DNA of 33,536 nucleotides from Candidatus Gastranaerophilales bacterium. Its GTDB lineage: Bacteria > Cyanobacteriota > Vampirovibrionia > Gastranaerophilales > Gastranaerophilaceae. The notes below the pieces were generated by a model. It saw nothing but the letters and a program-made list of their open reading frames with translations, was not told the DNA's origin and did not search any database. Shown one piece after another: positions 5,443-21,828 of this stretch; position 1 is the first letter of the stretch; the number at the start of each line of letters is the position of its first letter. The stretch is taken from positions 1-33,536 of the forward strand of contig CALUWB010000019.1 of assembly GCA_944324375.1 (NCBI GenBank). Direction: 5' to 3'. The translations under genes and the position numbers were made by a program.

Positions 5443-6321
5443 ATGAATTTAAATCAAATAAAATATGTAATAACAATAGCAGAGGAAAAAAGTTTTACAG
5501 AAGCAGCCAAAAAACTTTTTATAGCACAACCTTCATTAAGCAAAAGTATAAAGCTTTTAGAAGAAGAGTTGGGTGTGGAATTATTCGAGAGAAATCCTGT
5601 AAAGTTAACTTATGCAGGAGAATTATTTTTGCAAAAGGCTAAAAAGATTATAGAAGAAGTTGATGATATAAAAATACAAATATCAGATATTTCAGTTCAA
5701 AATAAAACTAATATAATAATAGGGATTCCTTCACATAGGTGTTATTATTTTATGCCAAAAATATTAAGTGATTTGCATAAAGAATATCCTAATTGTTATA
5801 TTAAAATAGATGAATATCCAACATTTATGTTGAAGGCTATGTTAGCCGAGGATAAAATAGATTTTTATTTAGGTACAGAAAATCCTGACAGTTTAATATA
5901 TAAAGAAGAACATATTTGTGAAGAAACATTATATTTAGTATTTCCCAAAAATTGGAATATTCCTGTAGTAAATAATGAAGTAGATATAAAAGAATTTAAA
6001 GATAAAAATTTTATAATATTTCCAGAACAATTAGCTCTTACTCATTATGTACATAAAATGTGTGATGATAATGGATTTGAGTTGAATTCAATAATTGAAT
6101 GTCATAATGCAGAAACAATATACTCAATGATAAATGAAGGTTTAGGTGTATCATTTTTACCAGATTTATTTTTAAAATTTTTTCCACACCAAGAAAATGT
6201 ATGTTGTTATAAAGTAAAAGATTATTTATATAAACGAGATTTTTCCATATTTTATAAGAAAGACAAATATTTAGTAAAACCAGCAAAACGTTTTTTAGAA
6301 TTATTCAAACAAATTATATAA
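5443..6321 (+). CDS. LysR-family transcriptional regulator
   Basis: A 292-residue LysR-type regulator of normal family length. The N-terminal winged helix-turn-helix is clear: residues 1-60 contain SFTEAAKKLFIAQPSLSKSI followed by the usual LEEELGVELFERN and the linker helix. The rest is the periplasmic-binding-protein-like effector domain (INEGLGVSFLPDLF near residue 228). It diverges from the efflux operon across about 130 bases holding AGCTAT half-sites, so the natural prediction is that it controls that operon and its own expression in response to a small ligand. The start is the canonical family start (MNLNQIKYVITIAEEKSF), although no ribosome binding site is visible. The ligand is unknown. 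Confidence 0.93.
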   Translation: MNLNQIKYVITIAEEKSFTEAAKKLFIAQPSLSKSIKLLEEELGVELFERNPVKLTYAGELFLQKAKKIIEEVDDIKIQISDISVQNKTNIIIGIPSHRCYYFMPKILSDLHKEYPNCYIKIDEYPTFMLKAMLAEDKIDFYLGTENPDSLIYKEEHICEETLYLVFPKNWNIPVVNNEVDIKEFKDKNFIIFPEQLALTHYVHKMCDDNGFELNSIIECHNAETIYSMINEGLGVSFLPDLFLKFFPHQENVCCYKVKDYLYKRDFSIFYKKDKYLVKPAKRFLELFKQII

Positions 6322-6422
6322 AGAAATGTAACGAAAAAATATTTCCTTGAAATTTCATAAGTAAATTCAAACTTAAGAATTATATAAGTTGAGATTCTGT
6401 GAAGCGAAAGGAGAGTATAAAT

Positions 6423-7559
6423 ATGTCAAATGGATTTTCTATTGATACATTACGTGGAACACCATTATATGCATTGGCACAAAATGCAAATGTAAATGGT
6501 GGTGGCACTTTAGATGCTGCAGAGATGTTTGCATTCCAACAACAGATGCAAAATATGGGTTGGACACCTGAGCAATTTGGATTAGCAATAGAAGTAACTG
6601 ATAATGCAGGAGAAACGGCTAAAGAAACACGAAAAAACATGCAACAAGCTGGAAAAGATTTAGAAAAATCTTATAAAACTCAGTTTGGTAAACAAGGAGC
6701 TGAGGCAGCCCAAACAGCAGAACAAAGAGCAGATGCAATGGTTAAAACAGCATATGATATGTTTAAATATGAACATGGAAATGTAATGTTTATTCCTAAA
6801 AGTTTAGGAGCACGTCCAAAATATACAAATGCACAATATATGGATGACGTATCACGCTATTCAGCAGATTTAATGAACTGGGCAAATGATGTAAAACAAG
6901 AATATATCAATGCCACAAAGATGACTAATGCAGAATTAGCAGCCTTAATTATAAATAATGATAATAATAATGCTCGCGATATAATGATTAACGATAATAT
7001 AAATGCAGGTCAGTTATCAGATAAGATTGATGACAGCACTAAGCAAATTAATAAAAATGTTGATTCCGAAGGTGCAGCAACTCGTGCAACTGTTAGACAA
7101 GAAGGTGCAAAAACTAGAGCAAATGATGATGCAAATGCAGTAGGTTTACATGCTCATATGGCATATGAAGGAGCATATACTCGTTCAACTGTAGAAGAAC
7201 AAGGATATAAAACAAGAGAAACTGTACGAAATGAATCGGATTATACAAGATATACTGTAAAAAAAGAATCAGAAGATATTAAAGATACAGTGAAATCAGA
7301 AACAAAAGAAACAGAAGAATTAAATGCATCATCTCAAAGAATTCAAACTAATTTAAATGCAAATGCAACATCTACACATACAATCGGAACTTTAGATAAA
7401 ATGGGTTCAATGCAAGAAAAAATTATTCAGTCGAATTTACCTCACGAAGAAAAAATGGCATTAATGAATAAATTGGAACAATTGTCGATTAAAGTAATAA
7501 TTCGAGATGGCGATATGGATGCTCTTAATAAAGAAATAGACCAAACAATCAATCAATAA
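6423..7559 (+). CDS. Unknown protein with EF-hand-like N-terminus and tandem 11-residue repeats
   Basis: A 378-residue protein that I do not recognise as a named family. ATG 6423 is preceded by AAAGGAGAG, a better start than ATG 6399. Residues 1-45 carry a calcium-loop-like stretch (NANVNGGGTLDAAEM) resembling an EF-hand with two extra glycines. The middle is helical and rich in Ala, Gln and Lys. Residues 217-304 are eight consecutive 11-residue units with the pattern [G/S]xxTRxTVxxE, weakening in units 3, 7 and 8. There is no signal peptide or membrane segment. It stands alone: the LysR gene ends about 100 bases before it and a strong terminator follows. The repeats predict an extended amphipathic helix or right-handed coiled coil, so a structural, scaffold or membrane-surface role is possible but unproven. 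Confidence 0.75.
   Translation: MSNGFSIDTLRGTPLYALAQNANVNGGGTLDAAEMFAFQQQMQNMGWTPEQFGLAIEVTDNAGETAKETRKNMQQAGKDLEKSYKTQFGKQGAEAAQTAEQRADAMVKTAYDMFKYEHGNVMFIPKSLGARPKYTNAQYMDDVSRYSADLMNWANDVKQEYINATKMTNAELAALIINNDNNNARDIMINDNINAGQLSDKIDDSTKQINKNVDSEGAATRATVRQEGAKTRANDDANAVGLHAHMAYEGAYTRSTVEEQGYKTRETVRNESDYTRYTVKKESEDIKDTVKSETKETEELNASSQRIQTNLNANATSTHTIGTLDKMGSMQEKIIQSNLPHEEKMALMNKLEQLSIKVIIRDGDMDALNKEIDQTINQ
7071..7334 (+). repeat. Eight degenerate 33-base units encoding 11-residue repeats
   Basis: Units start at 7071, 7104, 7137, 7170, 7203, 7236, 7269 and 7302 with no gaps. The best ones read GAATRATVRQE, GAYTRSTVEEQ, GYKTRETVRNE and SDYTRYTVKKE. The DNA copies are diverged, so this is an old protein-level repeat, not a recent tandem duplication. 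Confidence 0.8.
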
Positions 7560-7570
7560 AACAGTAATAA

Positions 7571-7607
7571 AGAGAGAAAGTACATTACTTTCTCTCTATT
7601 TTTTATT
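7571..7607 (+). terminator. Rho-independent terminator after the 11-residue-repeat gene
   Basis: A 12-base perfect stem (AGAGAGAAAGTA, 7571-7582, pairing with 7586-7597) with a 3-base loop is followed by ATTTTTTATT. It lies 11 bases past the stop codon. Confidence 0.88.
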
Positions 7608-7746: not shown

Positions 7747-8535
7747 ATGTCAAGAAAACCAATCATTGCAGGAAACTGGAAAATGAATTTATTACAAAAT
7801 GAAGGAAGAGAATTATTCGAAGGAATCAAATCTCTTGTTTCAGGTTTAAGTGAATCTCAATTACCTGAGATAATTGTTGCTCCAACATTTACAACAATCG
7901 GTGTTGTATCTGCAGCAAAAGCATCTTGGGGAAGTGATAAAATTAAAATTGCAGGTCAAAATTGTCACTGGGAATCATCAGGAGCTTATACCGGTGAAAT
8001 TTCAGTAGAAATGTTAAAAGATGCTGGTTGTGATTATGTAATTATAGGTCACTCAGAAAGAAGACAATATTTCTCAGAAACAGATGAAATGATTAATAAA
8101 AAAGCAAAAGCTATTTTAGCAGGTGGTTTATTACCAATTATTTGCTGCGGTGAAACATTAGAACAAAGAGAAGCTGGTGTAACAGATGAGCATATCGCAT
8201 CTCAAATCAGAGCAGCATTAAAAGGTTTAACAAATGATGAAATTGCAAAATCAGTTATTGCTTATGAACCAATTTGGGCAATCGGAACTGGAAAAACTTG
8301 TGATTCAGTAGAAGCAAACAGAGTAATTGCAATGATTAGAAGAGTTGTAAAAGAAGTTTCTTCAGAAGAAGCAGGAAATGCAATCAGAATTTTATACGGT
8401 GGATCAGTAAAACCTTCAACAATTGAAGAACAATTATCTCAATCTGATATTGATGGTGGTTTAATTGGTGGAGCAAGCTTAAAAGCTGATAGTTTCAACG
8501 AAATCATTACAAACTCAATGAAAGTAGCTGTATAA
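7747..8535 (+). CDS. tpiA: Triosephosphate isomerase
   Basis: Interconverts dihydroxyacetone phosphate and glyceraldehyde 3-phosphate in glycolysis and gluconeogenesis. The 262-residue length is slightly above the usual 250. All catalytic signatures are present: Lys12 in AGNWKMN, His102 in IIGHSERR, Glu174 in AYEPIWAIGTGKT, and the phosphate-binding LYGGSVKP near the C-terminus. ATG 7747 follows AAGGAG with a 7-base spacer and gives the canonical N-terminus MSRKPIIAGNWKMN; an ATG 33 bases upstream lacks a ribosome binding site. It is flanked by terminators on both sides, so it is probably transcribed alone, away from other glycolytic genes. Confidence 0.98.
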   Translation: MSRKPIIAGNWKMNLLQNEGRELFEGIKSLVSGLSESQLPEIIVAPTFTTIGVVSAAKASWGSDKIKIAGQNCHWESSGAYTGEISVEMLKDAGCDYVIIGHSERRQYFSETDEMINKKAKAILAGGLLPIICCGETLEQREAGVTDEHIASQIRAALKGLTNDEIAKSVIAYEPIWAIGTGKTCDSVEANRVIAMIRRVVKEVSSEEAGNAIRILYGGSVKPSTIEEQLSQSDIDGGLIGGASLKADSFNEIITNSMKVAV

Positions 8536-15346: not shown

Positions 15347-16300
15347 TTATTTTAGATATTCAAATAATTCTTTATAATTTTCAAAAATATTAATATTAAA
15401 ATTTATTTTATCAGGAGTAATATTTAATACTGTTTGATTTTCTTTGATTGCATAAATAGGAATATTTCTTTTATTTGCTTCCATTACAGGGATAGAGCCA
15501 AGTGCATCATAAGGCATGATTAAATAATCCAAATCATTAATAGAATATCCTTCATTTTCTGTTAATTGTGGAGCTTTAGAAAGTCCAATTAATATACAAG
15601 GAAGATATGTTGGAGTTATGTATTCAGCAGAACATCTAGCATCTACAATTCTTTGTTCTATTTCGATGTCTTCAAATGCTGGAGAATGTGCGCATGGAAT
15701 TTTTAATTCTCTTGAAACATAGTGTGAAATAATCGCTTCAACTCCACCTACAGGGTCAACACCTATACCATTAGAATAATTATCTGAGTCTGATTCATCA
15801 AATTTACAAACGATTGCAATAGCTTCTGCGCCTTTATTAATTAGTCTTTTAGCAGAATTTATTATTGTTTGGATATTGTTTACTCCTCCTGTTGAAATAT
15901 TCGATGAGTCGATTTCAAAAGATACACCAACTTCTTCATCCGTTACATCCCAGTCAATAATATCTATTCCATAAATGGTTTTAACTGCATTTATTGTATT
16001 AATATGAACATTAAGTATACCTTGAGATATACCTTTATCAAAAACTACTCCAACTTTGTTCTTCTTAACTTCTTTAAGACATAATTTACCTCTAAATAAT
16101 TCATCAAGAGAATAACCTTCAACATAAAGCATGTTATCAGTAATCCCTGAAAAACATCCTGCATTGACAACATTAGGGTTTACAATAAGTTTTGTATTAT
16201 TAATCTCAGCAAATTTTCTAGCCCAATAGCTTGCATCTCCTGCAAATCCACCTATTGAAGCTCCTATTCCAGTTGGTATTATAAATGCTCCTAATTTCAT
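15347..16300 (-). CDS. DUF3326 family protein (cyanobacterial/plastid type)
   Basis: A 317-residue protein that I recognise as DUF3326, a family of unknown function known mainly from cyanobacteria and plant plastids. The family hallmarks are present: PTGIGASIGGFAGDASYWAR (residues 9-28), NPNVVNAG and MLYVEGYSLDELFRG near 42-70, the Asp-rich VGVDPVGGVEAIISHYVSRE followed by LKIPCAHSPAF near 200-230, and LPCILIGLSKAPQL near 255. No signal peptide or membrane helix. It is a single gene, convergent with fabF and preceded on its own strand by a 9-base-arm palindrome. In photosynthetic relatives the function is also not established, so no reaction is proposed. Its presence is my best clue that this genome belongs to the cyanobacterial lineage. 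Confidence 0.85.
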   Translation of the reverse strand: MKLGAFIIPTGIGASIGGFAGDASYWARKFAEINNTKLIVNPNVVNAGCFSGITDNMLYVEGYSLDELFRGKLCLKEVKKNKVGVVFDKGISQGILNVHINTINAVKTIYGIDIIDWDVTDEEVGVSFEIDSSNISTGGVNNIQTIINSAKRLINKGAEAIAIVCKFDESDSDNYSNGIGVDPVGGVEAIISHYVSRELKIPCAHSPAFEDIEIEQRIVDARCSAEYITPTYLPCILIGLSKAPQLTENEGYSINDLDYLIMPYDALGSIPVMEANKRNIPIYAIKENQTVLNITPDKINFNINIFENYKELFEYLK

Positions 16301-16613: not shown

Positions 16614-16646
16614 TTTTATATCACTTTATATTGTAGTAGATTGTGT

Positions 16647-18383
16647 ATGATAAGTCAGTTTAGTTTAAATCAACAAAATAATTCGAATATAAATAGTTCA
16701 TCTCTACAAAACAAAGGTTTAAAAAACAAGCCTAGTTTTGCAGGGCGTGAGAAAGCTGGTAGTGCAGTAATTGGTTTAATTCAAAAATGTGAAAAAGAGC
16801 CAATGGTAAATGTTGCGGCTATTGATTTGTTAACAGCAATATTGCCACGTTCAATATGGGAATCATTAACTAATATTTTTGCTGGTTTTGAAGCATTTAG
16901 AAGAGAGTCATCAGGTCTTATTGTAAACTGTTTAATACCAGGGTTTATAACATTAGGAATAGCTAAATTAACTAATAATATGATAATGGGTAAAGGAAAA
17001 TCAAATTTATCAAATTGTTGGGCAAGTTCAGATACAATAACAAAAGTAACAGATCATTATAAAGATGCAGAAAAAACAGATGCATTTAAAGATGGTATGA
17101 AAATATTTAATAATGAGAAACATGCCAGAGTATATGCAGTAAATTATAATTTATTAAATGAGGCATCAGGTATTGATGGATTTAAGCAAGTGAAGTTTAA
17201 TGAATCAATGTCAAAACAAGAACTTTCTGAAGCCGCAGAAAAATTAACAAGAATAAGTTTTAAATATAAAGATAAAAAATTATCAGAAGAATTAATTGAA
17301 AAAACACCTAAAAAACGTTTAAAAGCAATCTTTAGATCAATATCATCAAAAACACATGCAGCACAAGATGTAAAATTTGGAAAAGGTTTAGAAGCAGGTT
17401 TAGAAAGAACTTTAACAGATACTCACCAATTGGTTAAAGGTATGGTTAAAGAAGGAATCAAACCAGAAAATGTTGCAGATTATGTTAAACGTTCAAAACG
17501 TTTGTTAAAGATAAAGAGTTTATTAGGAATGGCAGTAATATTGCCATTAGCAGCATCAATGCAACATATAAATAGAAAAATTACAGAAAAATTATCAGGT
17601 GTAAAAGGTGCTCCAATTCATGATAATTACGGAAAAGAAGGTTCAAGAAAAACAGCAGACGAGATAAAATCAGAAAAGGCAGCTTTAATTGGTCGTAAGA
17701 TATGGGCAGTATCATCAATGCTTGGTGTTGCGATGTTATCAATGATGAAATTGCCAAATATTAAGACTTTGAAAAATATTGTTCAGTTTAAAGATCAATT
17801 CCCAACAATGGATCAAGCAAGAGCAATTTCTGCCGTAACATTTGCATCAAGAATGGCAGTAGCAGATGATGAAGCTGAATTAAAAGAAGCTCATACAAGA
17901 GATATCGTAACATTCTCAAGCATGTATTTCTTAGGAGATTATGGTGCTAAGGCAATGGCTTCTCATTTAGAAAAGAAAACAGGTGTAGAATTATTAAATA
18001 AAACATTTGATCCAGCTAAGAATAAAGGATTCTTTGCAAAAGCTAAGAATTGGGTATTACATACTCACTTAAAATCATCAGATGAGTTAAGAGGTGTTGG
18101 AAAAACATTAGAAGAAGCAACAAAATTGCGAGCAAAATGTCAAATGGCAAATTTAGGAACATCTTTAGCATTGTTAGGCGTAGTTGTTCCAATTTATACA
18201 AGGTTAAAGACAAAAAAACATGATGCTGAAAAAGCAAAATTAAGAGCCTTAAATGCTAGCAAATTTGAATCTTTACCAGTTTTAAATAAACATAATATAA
18301 TTTCATCCAATATAACTTCTAAAGGAAATAATCATCAGTTTCAATCATTAAAACAGTTTAAAGCGAAAGTCGAAGTAAAATAA
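16647..18383 (+). CDS. Membrane protein of unknown function, first of a tandem paralogous pair
   Basis: A 578-residue protein that matches no family I know. I start it at ATG 16647; a TTG 6 bases earlier is possible and neither has a clear ribosome binding site. Residues 1-28 are a polar tail rich in Asn, Ser and Gln, ending in KPSFAG (28-33). Then comes EPMVNVAAIDLLTAILPRSI (51-70) and hydrophobic segments near 91-108, 291-306, 352-367 and 503-518, separated by basic soluble stretches. Residues 401-421 (SRMAVADDEAELKEAHTRDI plus V) align without gaps with residues 372-392 of the next gene product, as do EP, D and PR near the N-terminus. The stop overlaps the next start (TAATG), so the two are coupled and probably act together. 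There is no signal peptide or enzyme motif. Confidence 0.8.
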   Translation: MISQFSLNQQNNSNINSSSLQNKGLKNKPSFAGREKAGSAVIGLIQKCEKEPMVNVAAIDLLTAILPRSIWESLTNIFAGFEAFRRESSGLIVNCLIPGFITLGIAKLTNNMIMGKGKSNLSNCWASSDTITKVTDHYKDAEKTDAFKDGMKIFNNEKHARVYAVNYNLLNEASGIDGFKQVKFNESMSKQELSEAAEKLTRISFKYKDKKLSEELIEKTPKKRLKAIFRSISSKTHAAQDVKFGKGLEAGLERTLTDTHQLVKGMVKEGIKPENVADYVKRSKRLLKIKSLLGMAVILPLAASMQHINRKITEKLSGVKGAPIHDNYGKEGSRKTADEIKSEKAALIGRKIWAVSSMLGVAMLSMMKLPNIKTLKNIVQFKDQFPTMDQARAISAVTFASRMAVADDEAELKEAHTRDIVTFSSMYFLGDYGAKAMASHLEKKTGVELLNKTFDPAKNKGFFAKAKNWVLHTHLKSSDELRGVGKTLEEATKLRAKCQMANLGTSLALLGVVVPIYTRLKTKKHDAEKAKLRALNASKFESLPVLNKHNIISSNITSKGNNHQFQSLKQFKAKVEVK

Positions 18384-20095
18384 TGCAAATTATCAACCAA
18401 GAGTTAAGTACAAATTCATATAAAGTTTCAAACAGCCATAACCATAATGGTAGTAAGCCTCAATTCAAGGGTTTTTGGAATAGCACATATAAATTTTTAG
18501 CAGATGAACCTGTATGGGGTGCAACATTAGTTGATTTAGGAGCAATGGTAATTCCAAGAACTTGGACTGATATGAAAAAACGAGGTTTTAATGCTGGATT
18601 TGAAACAGGTTTTAGAGAAGCAGAATCTTCTGCAAATGATGCATTAATAGGAATGTATGGTGTTGCAGCTGGTACAATGATAGCTGGAGCTATTAATAAT
18701 AGATATAATGTTAAAGCTCATAAGATTTTTGCATCAGATGATGCAGTAAATGTTTATTCTGCAAAATGGGCAAAACATAATGGTAATATTGATTCTTATG
18801 CAAGAGATATTGTTGATAGTTTAGAAGCATATAACCCAAATTCAGCTCAAGCAAATGCAGAAGGTTATATAAAAATAGCTAATGAACATAAGCAAGGTAT
18901 AATTGATGATTTAAAATATGTAGCTGAAGGTGATAGAAAAACAATGGGTGATAGATGGAAAGAAGTTAATAAACGTCTATCAGCAAAAATATTAGAAGCA
19001 ACAGGTACCGAACAGCAATTTAGACTTATTCATAAAGAAGGTTCAGTAGAAAAAGTAACAGTATCTAATTCAAAAACATTACTTAATAACTTCTACAATA
19101 TGACAAAAGCATTAAAATCAGATAAAGTTGTAGGTAAAGTTGGTGAATTTGTAAAAGATTATAAAGGTTTTGGAAAAACAAGAACAGGAATAGGTATTTT
19201 AATTGCAGGTATTTTTGCAGTAATTGCACAACCTTTAAATGTATATTTATCTAAGAAAAGAACCGGTTCAGATGGTTTTGTCGGAGTAGAAGGTCGTAAA
19301 AAAGATAATTCTGCAAGTTTCAAAGCATTAAAAGTTGCAAGTGGTATTGGAATGATGATGATATCATTAGCTTCAATGGGTGCATTATCAAAAAATCCTT
19401 TAAAAATACCTAAGTTATTTATTGAAAAGAACCAATATAAGGGTAAAAATCCAACAATCAATCAATTTAAAACAGTATTTGGTTTAGCTATTACATCAAG
19501 ATTATTAACAGCAAGAGATAGAGATGAACATAGAGAAGTTGTTACAAAAGATGTATTAGGATTCTTTAATTGGTTAATGTTAGGTAATGTCGTTAACCAA
19601 TTGATATTGCATAAATTTCAAGCAAAAGATGCAAACTTGTTAAAACGTGCTCCATTAAATAAAGATGCAAGTATATGGAAAAAAATGGGTAATTTCTTGA
19701 GTTCTCCAATCGCAACTCACTCTGAAGTAATAATTGATGGTTTAAAGAAGGAACGACCAGATATTAAATCTATTATAAAACCCGATGGTAAAGCAATGAA
19801 ATTTAGTGAAATGTTCAAAGCATTACCAAAAAATGGACAAGCAAGAAAGAATTTACGTTTATTAAACTTTGCTCAACTTAGTGGATATTTATATTCTGCT
19901 TTAGTTCTAGGTATAGGTATACCAAACTTAAATATTTATTTAACAAATTTAAGTGACAGACATAAAAAAGCTAAAATGGCAAAAATGATGCAACAAGAAC
20001 CTGCAACAGCTCAAGTATTTAAAGATATGAGAACAGTTGATAGACAAATAAATAAAACAGTATTTGGTAGTTTTAAAGAAACAAAAACTAATTAA
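18383..20095 (+). CDS. Membrane protein of unknown function, second of a tandem paralogous pair
   Basis: A 570-residue distant paralogue of the upstream gene product. It begins with a polar tail of about 24 residues ending in KPQFKGFW (25-32), then EPVWGATLVDLGAMVIPRTW (42-61) and RGFNAGFETGFREAESS. Hydrophobic segments lie near 86-103, 269-288, 319-335 and close to the C-terminus (LSGYLYSALVLGIGIPNLNI). Residues 356-395 (NPTINQFKTVFGLAITSRLL...) match 385-424 of its neighbour at an equivalent place, and the C-terminal end is again basic and polar. ATG 18383 overlaps the previous stop by one base and has no strong ribosome binding site, so translation is probably coupled. Its stop shares TTAA with the convergent tmk stop. 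Function unknown; a heteromeric membrane complex is a reasonable guess. Confidence 0.8.
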   Translation: MQIINQELSTNSYKVSNSHNHNGSKPQFKGFWNSTYKFLADEPVWGATLVDLGAMVIPRTWTDMKKRGFNAGFETGFREAESSANDALIGMYGVAAGTMIAGAINNRYNVKAHKIFASDDAVNVYSAKWAKHNGNIDSYARDIVDSLEAYNPNSAQANAEGYIKIANEHKQGIIDDLKYVAEGDRKTMGDRWKEVNKRLSAKILEATGTEQQFRLIHKEGSVEKVTVSNSKTLLNNFYNMTKALKSDKVVGKVGEFVKDYKGFGKTRTGIGILIAGIFAVIAQPLNVYLSKKRTGSDGFVGVEGRKKDNSASFKALKVASGIGMMMISLASMGALSKNPLKIPKLFIEKNQYKGKNPTINQFKTVFGLAITSRLLTARDRDEHREVVTKDVLGFFNWLMLGNVVNQLILHKFQAKDANLLKRAPLNKDASIWKKMGNFLSSPIATHSEVIIDGLKKERPDIKSIIKPDGKAMKFSEMFKALPKNGQARKNLRLLNFAQLSGYLYSALVLGIGIPNLNIYLTNLSDRHKKAKMAKMMQQEPATAQVFKDMRTVDRQINKTVFGSFKETKTN

Positions 20096-20849: not shown

Positions 20850-20868
20850 ACACAAAAAGGATGGATTT

Positions 20869-21828
20869 ATGAAAAAAATATTAATTTGTTTGTTGGTTTT
20901 ATTGAATTTAAATGTTTGTTTTGCATCTGAGAATACAAGTATTAATAAAGCATATAAAGACATAAATAGTTTATGTAAATCTCAAGATGTTGATGGTTTG
21001 TCAAGTTATGTTAAAACTAACAAATATGCAAGAAAAGCGATATCACAAAATGGTGAAAAGCTTGTTAATATGTGTATAAAAAAAGATTATGATTCAAAAA
21101 TTGTAAAAATTTTATTAAAGAATGGTGTAGATATAAATTTGTTTAAAGAGAATCCAATTATTGAAGCAATAAAAAATGATGATGTAGAATTAGTAGAAGC
21201 AATATTAAGTGGAAATTATGATATTAATAAATGTTTTAAGGGTAATAGAACAGCCTTGATATTTGCTGCAGATTATAATGGAAATCCTAAAGTTATAAAA
21301 ATGTTATTAGACAAAGGTGCAGACATAAATATTCCTGATAGTTGTGGAAGCATTCCTTTATTAACGATTTGCCGTCGTGAACCAAATAGTGCAGGTATAT
21401 ATTTATTAATTGATGCAGGGTCTGATTTGTATAGATTTAATAGAAGTGATCAAACACCTTATTCAGTTCTTCCAACTGGTAGAAAAAAAGAAGTTCAAAA
21501 TTATTATAATAAATCTATGTCTAAACGATTATCTCAAAGATTTGTTGATAAAAATAAAAGTTTGGTAATTGCTGAGTTTGGAATTCCTGATAAAAAAATA
21601 ACAATTGATAATAATACAGAAGGTTGGGAATATGAAACAATTGAACAGCATTATGTAACAATGACAAGTACCACAAATTCTTATTCAACTTGCAATTCTT
21701 CCTCTCGTTATAATACAACTTATAGAGGTGGTTATACTATAAAGATTAAGAAGAAAATGATTTTTACTATAACAAAAAACTGTGTATCATCTGCAAAGTT
21801 CACATCTTCTTATAATACTTCTCGCTAG
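20869..21828 (+). CDS. Secreted ankyrin-repeat protein with BamE-like C-terminus
   Basis: A 319-residue protein. ATG 20869 follows AAGGA at a 7-base spacing and gives a Sec signal peptide MKKILICLLVLLNLNVCFAS cleaved after about residue 19, so it should act in the periplasm or outside. About residues 95-205 hold ankyrin repeats: ENPIIEAIKNDDVELVEAIL, then TALIFAADYNGNPKVIKMLL with DKGADINIPDSCGSIPLLTI, then a degenerate unit. After a basic helix, the C-terminal part reads VIAEFGIPDKKI...NTEGWEY followed by beta-rich, Ser/Thr/Tyr/Asn-rich sequence and a strand MIFTITKNC; the FGxPD...GWxY pattern recalls the SmpA/BamE fold. That last match is tentative. Its stop overlaps the convergent gene in the palindrome CTAG. 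Likely role: protein binding in the envelope. Confidence 0.83.
   Translation: MKKILICLLVLLNLNVCFASENTSINKAYKDINSLCKSQDVDGLSSYVKTNKYARKAISQNGEKLVNMCIKKDYDSKIVKILLKNGVDINLFKENPIIEAIKNDDVELVEAILSGNYDINKCFKGNRTALIFAADYNGNPKVIKMLLDKGADINIPDSCGSIPLLTICRREPNSAGIYLLIDAGSDLYRFNRSDQTPYSVLPTGRKKEVQNYYNKSMSKRLSQRFVDKNKSLVIAEFGIPDKKITIDNNTEGWEYETIEQHYVTMTSTTNSYSTCNSSSRYNTTYRGGYTIKIKKKMIFTITKNCVSSAKFTSSYNTSR

Follow-up and report, generated by a model that had tools for sequence, protein, structure and literature searches.

What does a bacterial protein do whose sequence returns to the same register every 11 residues? The difficulty is that 11-mers of coiled coils and 11-mers of lipid-binding helices are alike in sequence, and telling them apart is a problem on which the protein family described here bears. 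The window, by which we mean the whole analysed stretch of 33,536 nucleotides from a Candidatus Gastranaerophilales bacterium (contig CALUWB010000019.1 of assembly GCA_944324375.1), carries at 6423..7559 of the forward strand a gene for such a protein of 378 amino acids. A preliminary description, made from the sequence alone, had proposed an uninterrupted amphipathic helix or right-handed coiled coil of apolipoprotein- or LEA-like kind. Here, we define the family to which the protein belongs and ask which kind of helix its residues suit. The evidence points to an oligomeric spacer or scaffold rod with interchangeable ends, a reading to which we give about an even chance.

The gene and its surroundings

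The open reading frame and four homologues from the same genus agree with the coordinates, start and frame first assigned to the gene. It lies between a LysR-type regulator gene upstream (5443-6321) and the triosephosphate isomerase gene tpiA downstream (ATG at 7747); tpiA likewise adjoins three of the four congeneric homologues. Comparison of the congeners delimits a conserved leader at 6324..6422 (forward strand), built of AAATGTAACGAAA, TTGAAAT, ATATAAGTTGAG and the ribosome-binding site AAAGGAG (6407-6413, forward strand). These blocks are identical or nearly identical in five congeners, and the remaining leader sequence has diverged. An intrinsic terminator with a 12-pair stem and a T-run follows at 7571-7597 on the same strand, so both of the strong expression signals described earlier are in place. 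A genome search for a regulon found the combined leader pattern only at this one site, and an Rfam search of the window returned no match. Nothing resembling a signal peptide was seen at the N-terminus of the window protein, where the best 12-residue Kyte-Doolittle mean is 0.42.

The gene is accessory, since in two congeners (G003 and G007) it is cleanly absent from the same site, where the conserved flanks lie about 25-33 bases apart. In other genera the neighbours, from a reading of their open reading frames, are unrelated (alaS, pgk, leuS and an OmpH-like gene), and this variety indicates no operon partner. The gene is under purifying selection. Whole-gene dN/dS is 0.12-0.17 against homologues with the same C-terminus and 0.39 against a variant whose C-terminal tail is non-homologous. 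Residues 1-175 give 0.05-0.11 across pairs, and the array gives 0.21-0.29 between the window protein and homologues of its own type.

Other genes of the window can be recorded briefly. Two adjacent genes at 16641-20095 encode proteins of 580 and 570 residues that lack a Pfam match above cut-off and that each begin with a P-x-F-x-G motif (KPSFAG and KPQFKG). The gene at 20857-21825 specifies a protein with ankyrin repeats and an apparent signal peptide, and a DUF3326 protein (E 5.7e-90) is encoded at 15347-16300 on the reverse strand.

Twelve units in one register

The 11-residue periodicity is real and longer than first claimed. Residues 170-316 contain 36 identities at lag 11, whereas 20,000 shuffles averaged 9.9 and never exceeded 22, and secondary peaks stand at lags 22, 33 and 44. 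The lag-11 count and the register together define twelve in-register units over residues 176-307 (6948..7343, forward strand), which AlphaFold2 models as helix at low confidence. The eight units originally counted at 217-304 are all in register, and their periodicity is perfect in spacing but not in sequence: T-R-x-T-V is exact in only four of them (TRATV, TRSTV, TRETV and TRYTV), partial in TRAND and IKDTV, and not matched by LHAHM and TEELN. The array of the window protein is free of proline, and its mean hydrophobicity is about 0.

Tandem Repeats Finder (TRF) detected no DNA tandem array in the repeat region, and DNA identity at lag 33 is 0.50, nearly equal across the three codon positions. 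The periodicity is therefore old and maintained at the level of the protein, and a recent DNA-level repeat expansion is rejected.

A monomer model built by AlphaFold2 from five sequences has a mean pLDDT of 51.6 and contains a single helix at 169-314, in line with the uninterrupted helix anticipated from the sequence but at low confidence (pLDDT blocks of 27-70 over the array). Fold comparison, which bore chiefly on the helical parts and barely covered the EF-hand part, returned for this model and for a second of residues 1-172 only generic helical bundles at the level expected without true relatives. For the C-terminal domain the best Z, to a designed bundle, was 10.6, and residues 55-168 reached at most 7.6. 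A sequence search of solved structures gave only chance-level or coiled matches.

An orphan family

A single-sequence search recovered the window protein and four relatives, all in its genus. A profile of those five sequences then matched 35 of the 383 genomes of the order, the weakest marginally. All but one of the 35 genomes belong to one family, and the match outside it is weak; in a phylum-wide sample, the 17 matched genomes (of 194) all fall in that same family. The protein represents an orphan family almost confined, within the genomes searched, to what would be the Gastranaerophilaceae. Searches of Pfam, NCBIfam and PHROGs gave no confident match and no model for this family, in keeping with the preliminary description, which knew of no family for the gene, and the period on which that description was built is retained in the homologues. 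No account of hendecad proteins in the Gastranaerophilales lineage was found in the open-access literature. A family unnamed in the three databases is now defined, from a little-studied gut lineage.

Phage records and viral contigs held no relatives, and a phage origin is rejected. The one plasmid candidate, a Nonomuraea match at E 0.04, is unconvincing. Two genomes each carry two members of differing N-terminal type (L013 and L047 in G060; L009 and L057 in G352), and one member, L021 (G076:C21), has two in-frame TAG codons and is probably a decayed copy.

Register and residue preferences across the family

Arrays of congeners differ in length by steps of 11 or 22 residues. In 28 members, 134 of the 150 TR dipeptides beyond residue 140 share the single register of their protein. 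Both kinds of C-terminus are tied to this register: the C-terminal domain begins with a TQE/TEE anchor, which falls on the TR register in all 18 proteins having it, and in proteins that end in a hydrophobic tail the TLDP anchor sits at +3 relative to the register in four of four. Because the members are related, these counts are not made of independent trials, but array length varies among the members without any register slip having been retained. With so strict a register through many length changes, the family is a natural source of data on hendecads of Thr, Val and Gly.

Over 166 units, apolar or small residues make up 98% of position a (mostly Thr), 90% of e (Val/Ile), 77% of i (Gly/Ala) and 67% of d (Thr/Ala); some units have Asp at e. 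Position b is basic in 85% (Arg). On a 3-11 wheel, a, e and i form a narrow strip that runs between h and b. The hendecad class calls for a continuous register in which a, d/e and h are apolar or small; here the register is exact and a, e, i and d conform, but h is acidic in 64% of units (Glu). Taken together with a low hydrophobic moment, the small a/d/e/i strip, Arg at b and Glu at h suit a straight hendecad coiled-coil rod more than they do a lipid-binding or LEA helix.

Head, helical domain and exchangeable C-terminus

The window protein opens with an EF-hand-like head (residues 1-55, 6423..6587, forward strand) that contains a degenerate loop from N23 to E34. The calcium-loop likeness noted at the outset has a sound basis in homology, since the head aligns with the canonical EF-hand loops DLDQDGKVEAGE in L029 and DQNNDGIIDQKE in L017 and is modelled as a helix-loop-helix (14-22/32-44, pLDDT 69-79 over residues 11-40). 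It does not extend to the ligands. Positions 1, 3, 5 and 12 read N, N, G and E, where an EF-hand has Asp or Asn at 1, 3 and 5 and Glu at 12, and position 3 varies among congeners (N, H or S). No EF-hand match is listed by Pfam for the protein, and calcium binding appears doubtful from these residues. A helical domain common to the family follows (residues 64-170, 6612..6932, forward strand), delimited by the family alignment and by low-confidence model helices at 63-88, 90-117 and 137-165; the model of residues 1-172 is likewise of low confidence outside the helix-loop-helix of 14-44. In more than half of the aligned members the N-terminus is quite different and has no EF-hand, although a related helical domain comes after it. 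Starts that resemble an EF-hand and lack a signal peptide also recur on unrelated proteins (L094, L095, L096 and L098, and L100, L101 and L102 of the same genome as the window, of which L100 adds a LysM domain).

C-termini in the family are of two kinds. The window protein has a small helical domain (residues 308-378, 7344..7556, forward strand), recognised by the family profile and modelled as three helices over 321-377 with pLDDT mostly 70-83. Other members end in a tail with a hydrophobic stretch, whose 19-residue Kyte-Doolittle mean reaches 1.59, borderline for a membrane span. The match of the tail in L029 to the membrane tail DUF883_C lies below cut-off (11 bits against 27, E 0.35). In G005, of the same genus, the tail type occupies the orthologous place in a protein that shares 90% identity with the window protein over its first 172 residues, and the alternation of domain and tail recurs in another genus (L013 versus L009, L010 and L012).

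A proposed spacer rod and its rivals

An exact register, its conservation through length change, distinct residue preferences and a swap of C-terminal ends at one locus are the features to be accounted for. In the reading that we favour, the protein would be a cytoplasmic homo-oligomer whose array, about 132 residues long, forms a near-straight hendecad coiled-coil rod; with a rise of 0.15 nm for each residue, the rod would measure roughly 20 nm. One end of the rod would carry the EF-hand-like head and the helical domain. At the other end would be the small helical C-terminal domain, replaced in some members by a hydrophobic tail, probably inserted in the membrane. Helices may pair in parallel, in contact along the narrow strip made by Thr at a, Val at e, Gly/Ala at i and Thr/Ala at d; Glu at h and Arg at b, one on each flank, would be available for inter-helix salt bridges. 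Array length would then set the spacing between the two ends, as befits a putative scaffold or spacer. There are precedents in that hendecads with small core residues build the bacterial rods FilP and Scy, and low-order hendecad bundles require such residues (PMC9858780); hendecads also build the stalk of the ATP synthase b subunit (PMC6131620). The single modelled helix, the proline-free array and the lack of a signal peptide-like N-terminus likewise speak for the rod. Counting against it are an unusually polar core, with Thr at position a and Glu at position h, a mean hydrophobicity of about 0, Asp at e in some units, and the low confidence of the array in models that are of monomers only; partner, operon and localisation lend it no support, as neighbours differ between genera.

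Perilipin 4 provides what may be the most serious rival model, being also T/V/G-rich, weakly hydrophobic and charge-asymmetric. By this account the array, as a 3-11 helix of weak amphipathicity, would coat lipid or another hydrophobic surface, with side-by-side charge contacts and a C-terminal domain paralleling the perilipin four-helix bundle. The 11-residue period, the T/V/G enrichment and a charge asymmetry that places basic residues to one side of the apolar strip, also described for Plin4 (PMC8064757, PMC5889406), all speak for it, as do the hydrophobic tails of some members and the weak matches to the Pfam apolipoprotein family that 9 of the 28 give. The quantitative comparison is less favourable. 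Mean 3-11 moments are 0.185 over 113 family 33-mers and 0.11 in the window protein, below the 0.257 of perilipin 4, the weakest lipid-binding helix in Table 1 of PMC5889406, and below the 0.30-0.39 of synuclein, Plin3 and ApoA-I. No 18-residue segment of the window protein passes the Heliquest discriminant. The moments of the family and of the window protein use the Fauchere-Pliska scale, and small differences in them or in the discriminant are not to be relied on. The charged fraction is 0.35 in the window protein, whose array has a net charge of -5, against 0.15 in Plin4. The R/K ratio is 2.3 and the E/D ratio 2.5; Plin4, by contrast, favours K and D, and in it a change of K to R nearly abolishes targeting (PMC8064757). 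We consider a lipid coat unlikely.

Export by a non-classical route, with the EF-hand-like module as a sorting part and the rod presenting or anchoring its ends outside the cell, is in our view also improbable. It would suit the conserved N-terminus, fast-changing rod and swapped C-termini, and the recurrence of EF-hand-like starts on large unrelated proteins, one with a LysM domain; yet the protein lacks a signal peptide, no secretion gene adjoins it, and the other N-terminus of more than half the members dispenses with the supposed sorting part. A largely disordered, stress-protective LEA-like protein, suggested by the 11-residue units, high charge and strong expression signals, is very improbable, given that LEA_4 is listed for none of the 28 members at E <= 0.1, that the flanking domain is conserved with a dN/dS of 0.05-0.10, and that a disordered shield needs neither strict register nor anchored ends.

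Comparison with known systems

The apolipoproteins A1/A4/E (PF01442), to which the protein had been likened, share its helical 11-residue periodicity and a weak profile match, but the window protein scores 20.6 bits against a gathering cut-off of 90, has a low moment and is without prolines in its array. Perilipin 4 shares T/V/G-rich 11-mers free of register slips, asymmetric charges and a helical C-terminal domain (PMC5889406, PMC8064757); the window family differs in its lower moment, roughly twice the charge, R and E in place of K and D, and a net negative array. EF-hand and dockerin loops resemble only the start of the protein, whose ligand positions are lost.

Among coiled-coil systems, the b subunit of F-type ATP synthase has a right-handed stalk formed by hendecads and a membrane anchor at one end (PMC6131620), as some members may have here. 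It shows no sequence match, however, its anchor is at the opposite terminus, and the window gene lies outside an atp operon. The actinobacterial, DivIVA-related FilP and Scy are long hendecad rods with small core residues (PMC9858780). Their N-terminal motif is DivIVA-like and their core is rich in Ala; DivIVA is absent from the Pfam matches of the window protein (E <= 10) and of the 28 members (E <= 0.1). The window family instead combines a Thr/Val/Gly strip and Arg at b with an EF-hand-like or other head, in a different lineage. Tentatively, and with more doubt than attaches to the rod itself, it could be an 'adjustable spacer' specific to this bacterial lineage, a rod that changes length in evolution only by whole units of 11 residues, whose heads are interchangeable and whose tips alternate between soluble domain and membrane anchor at the same locus.
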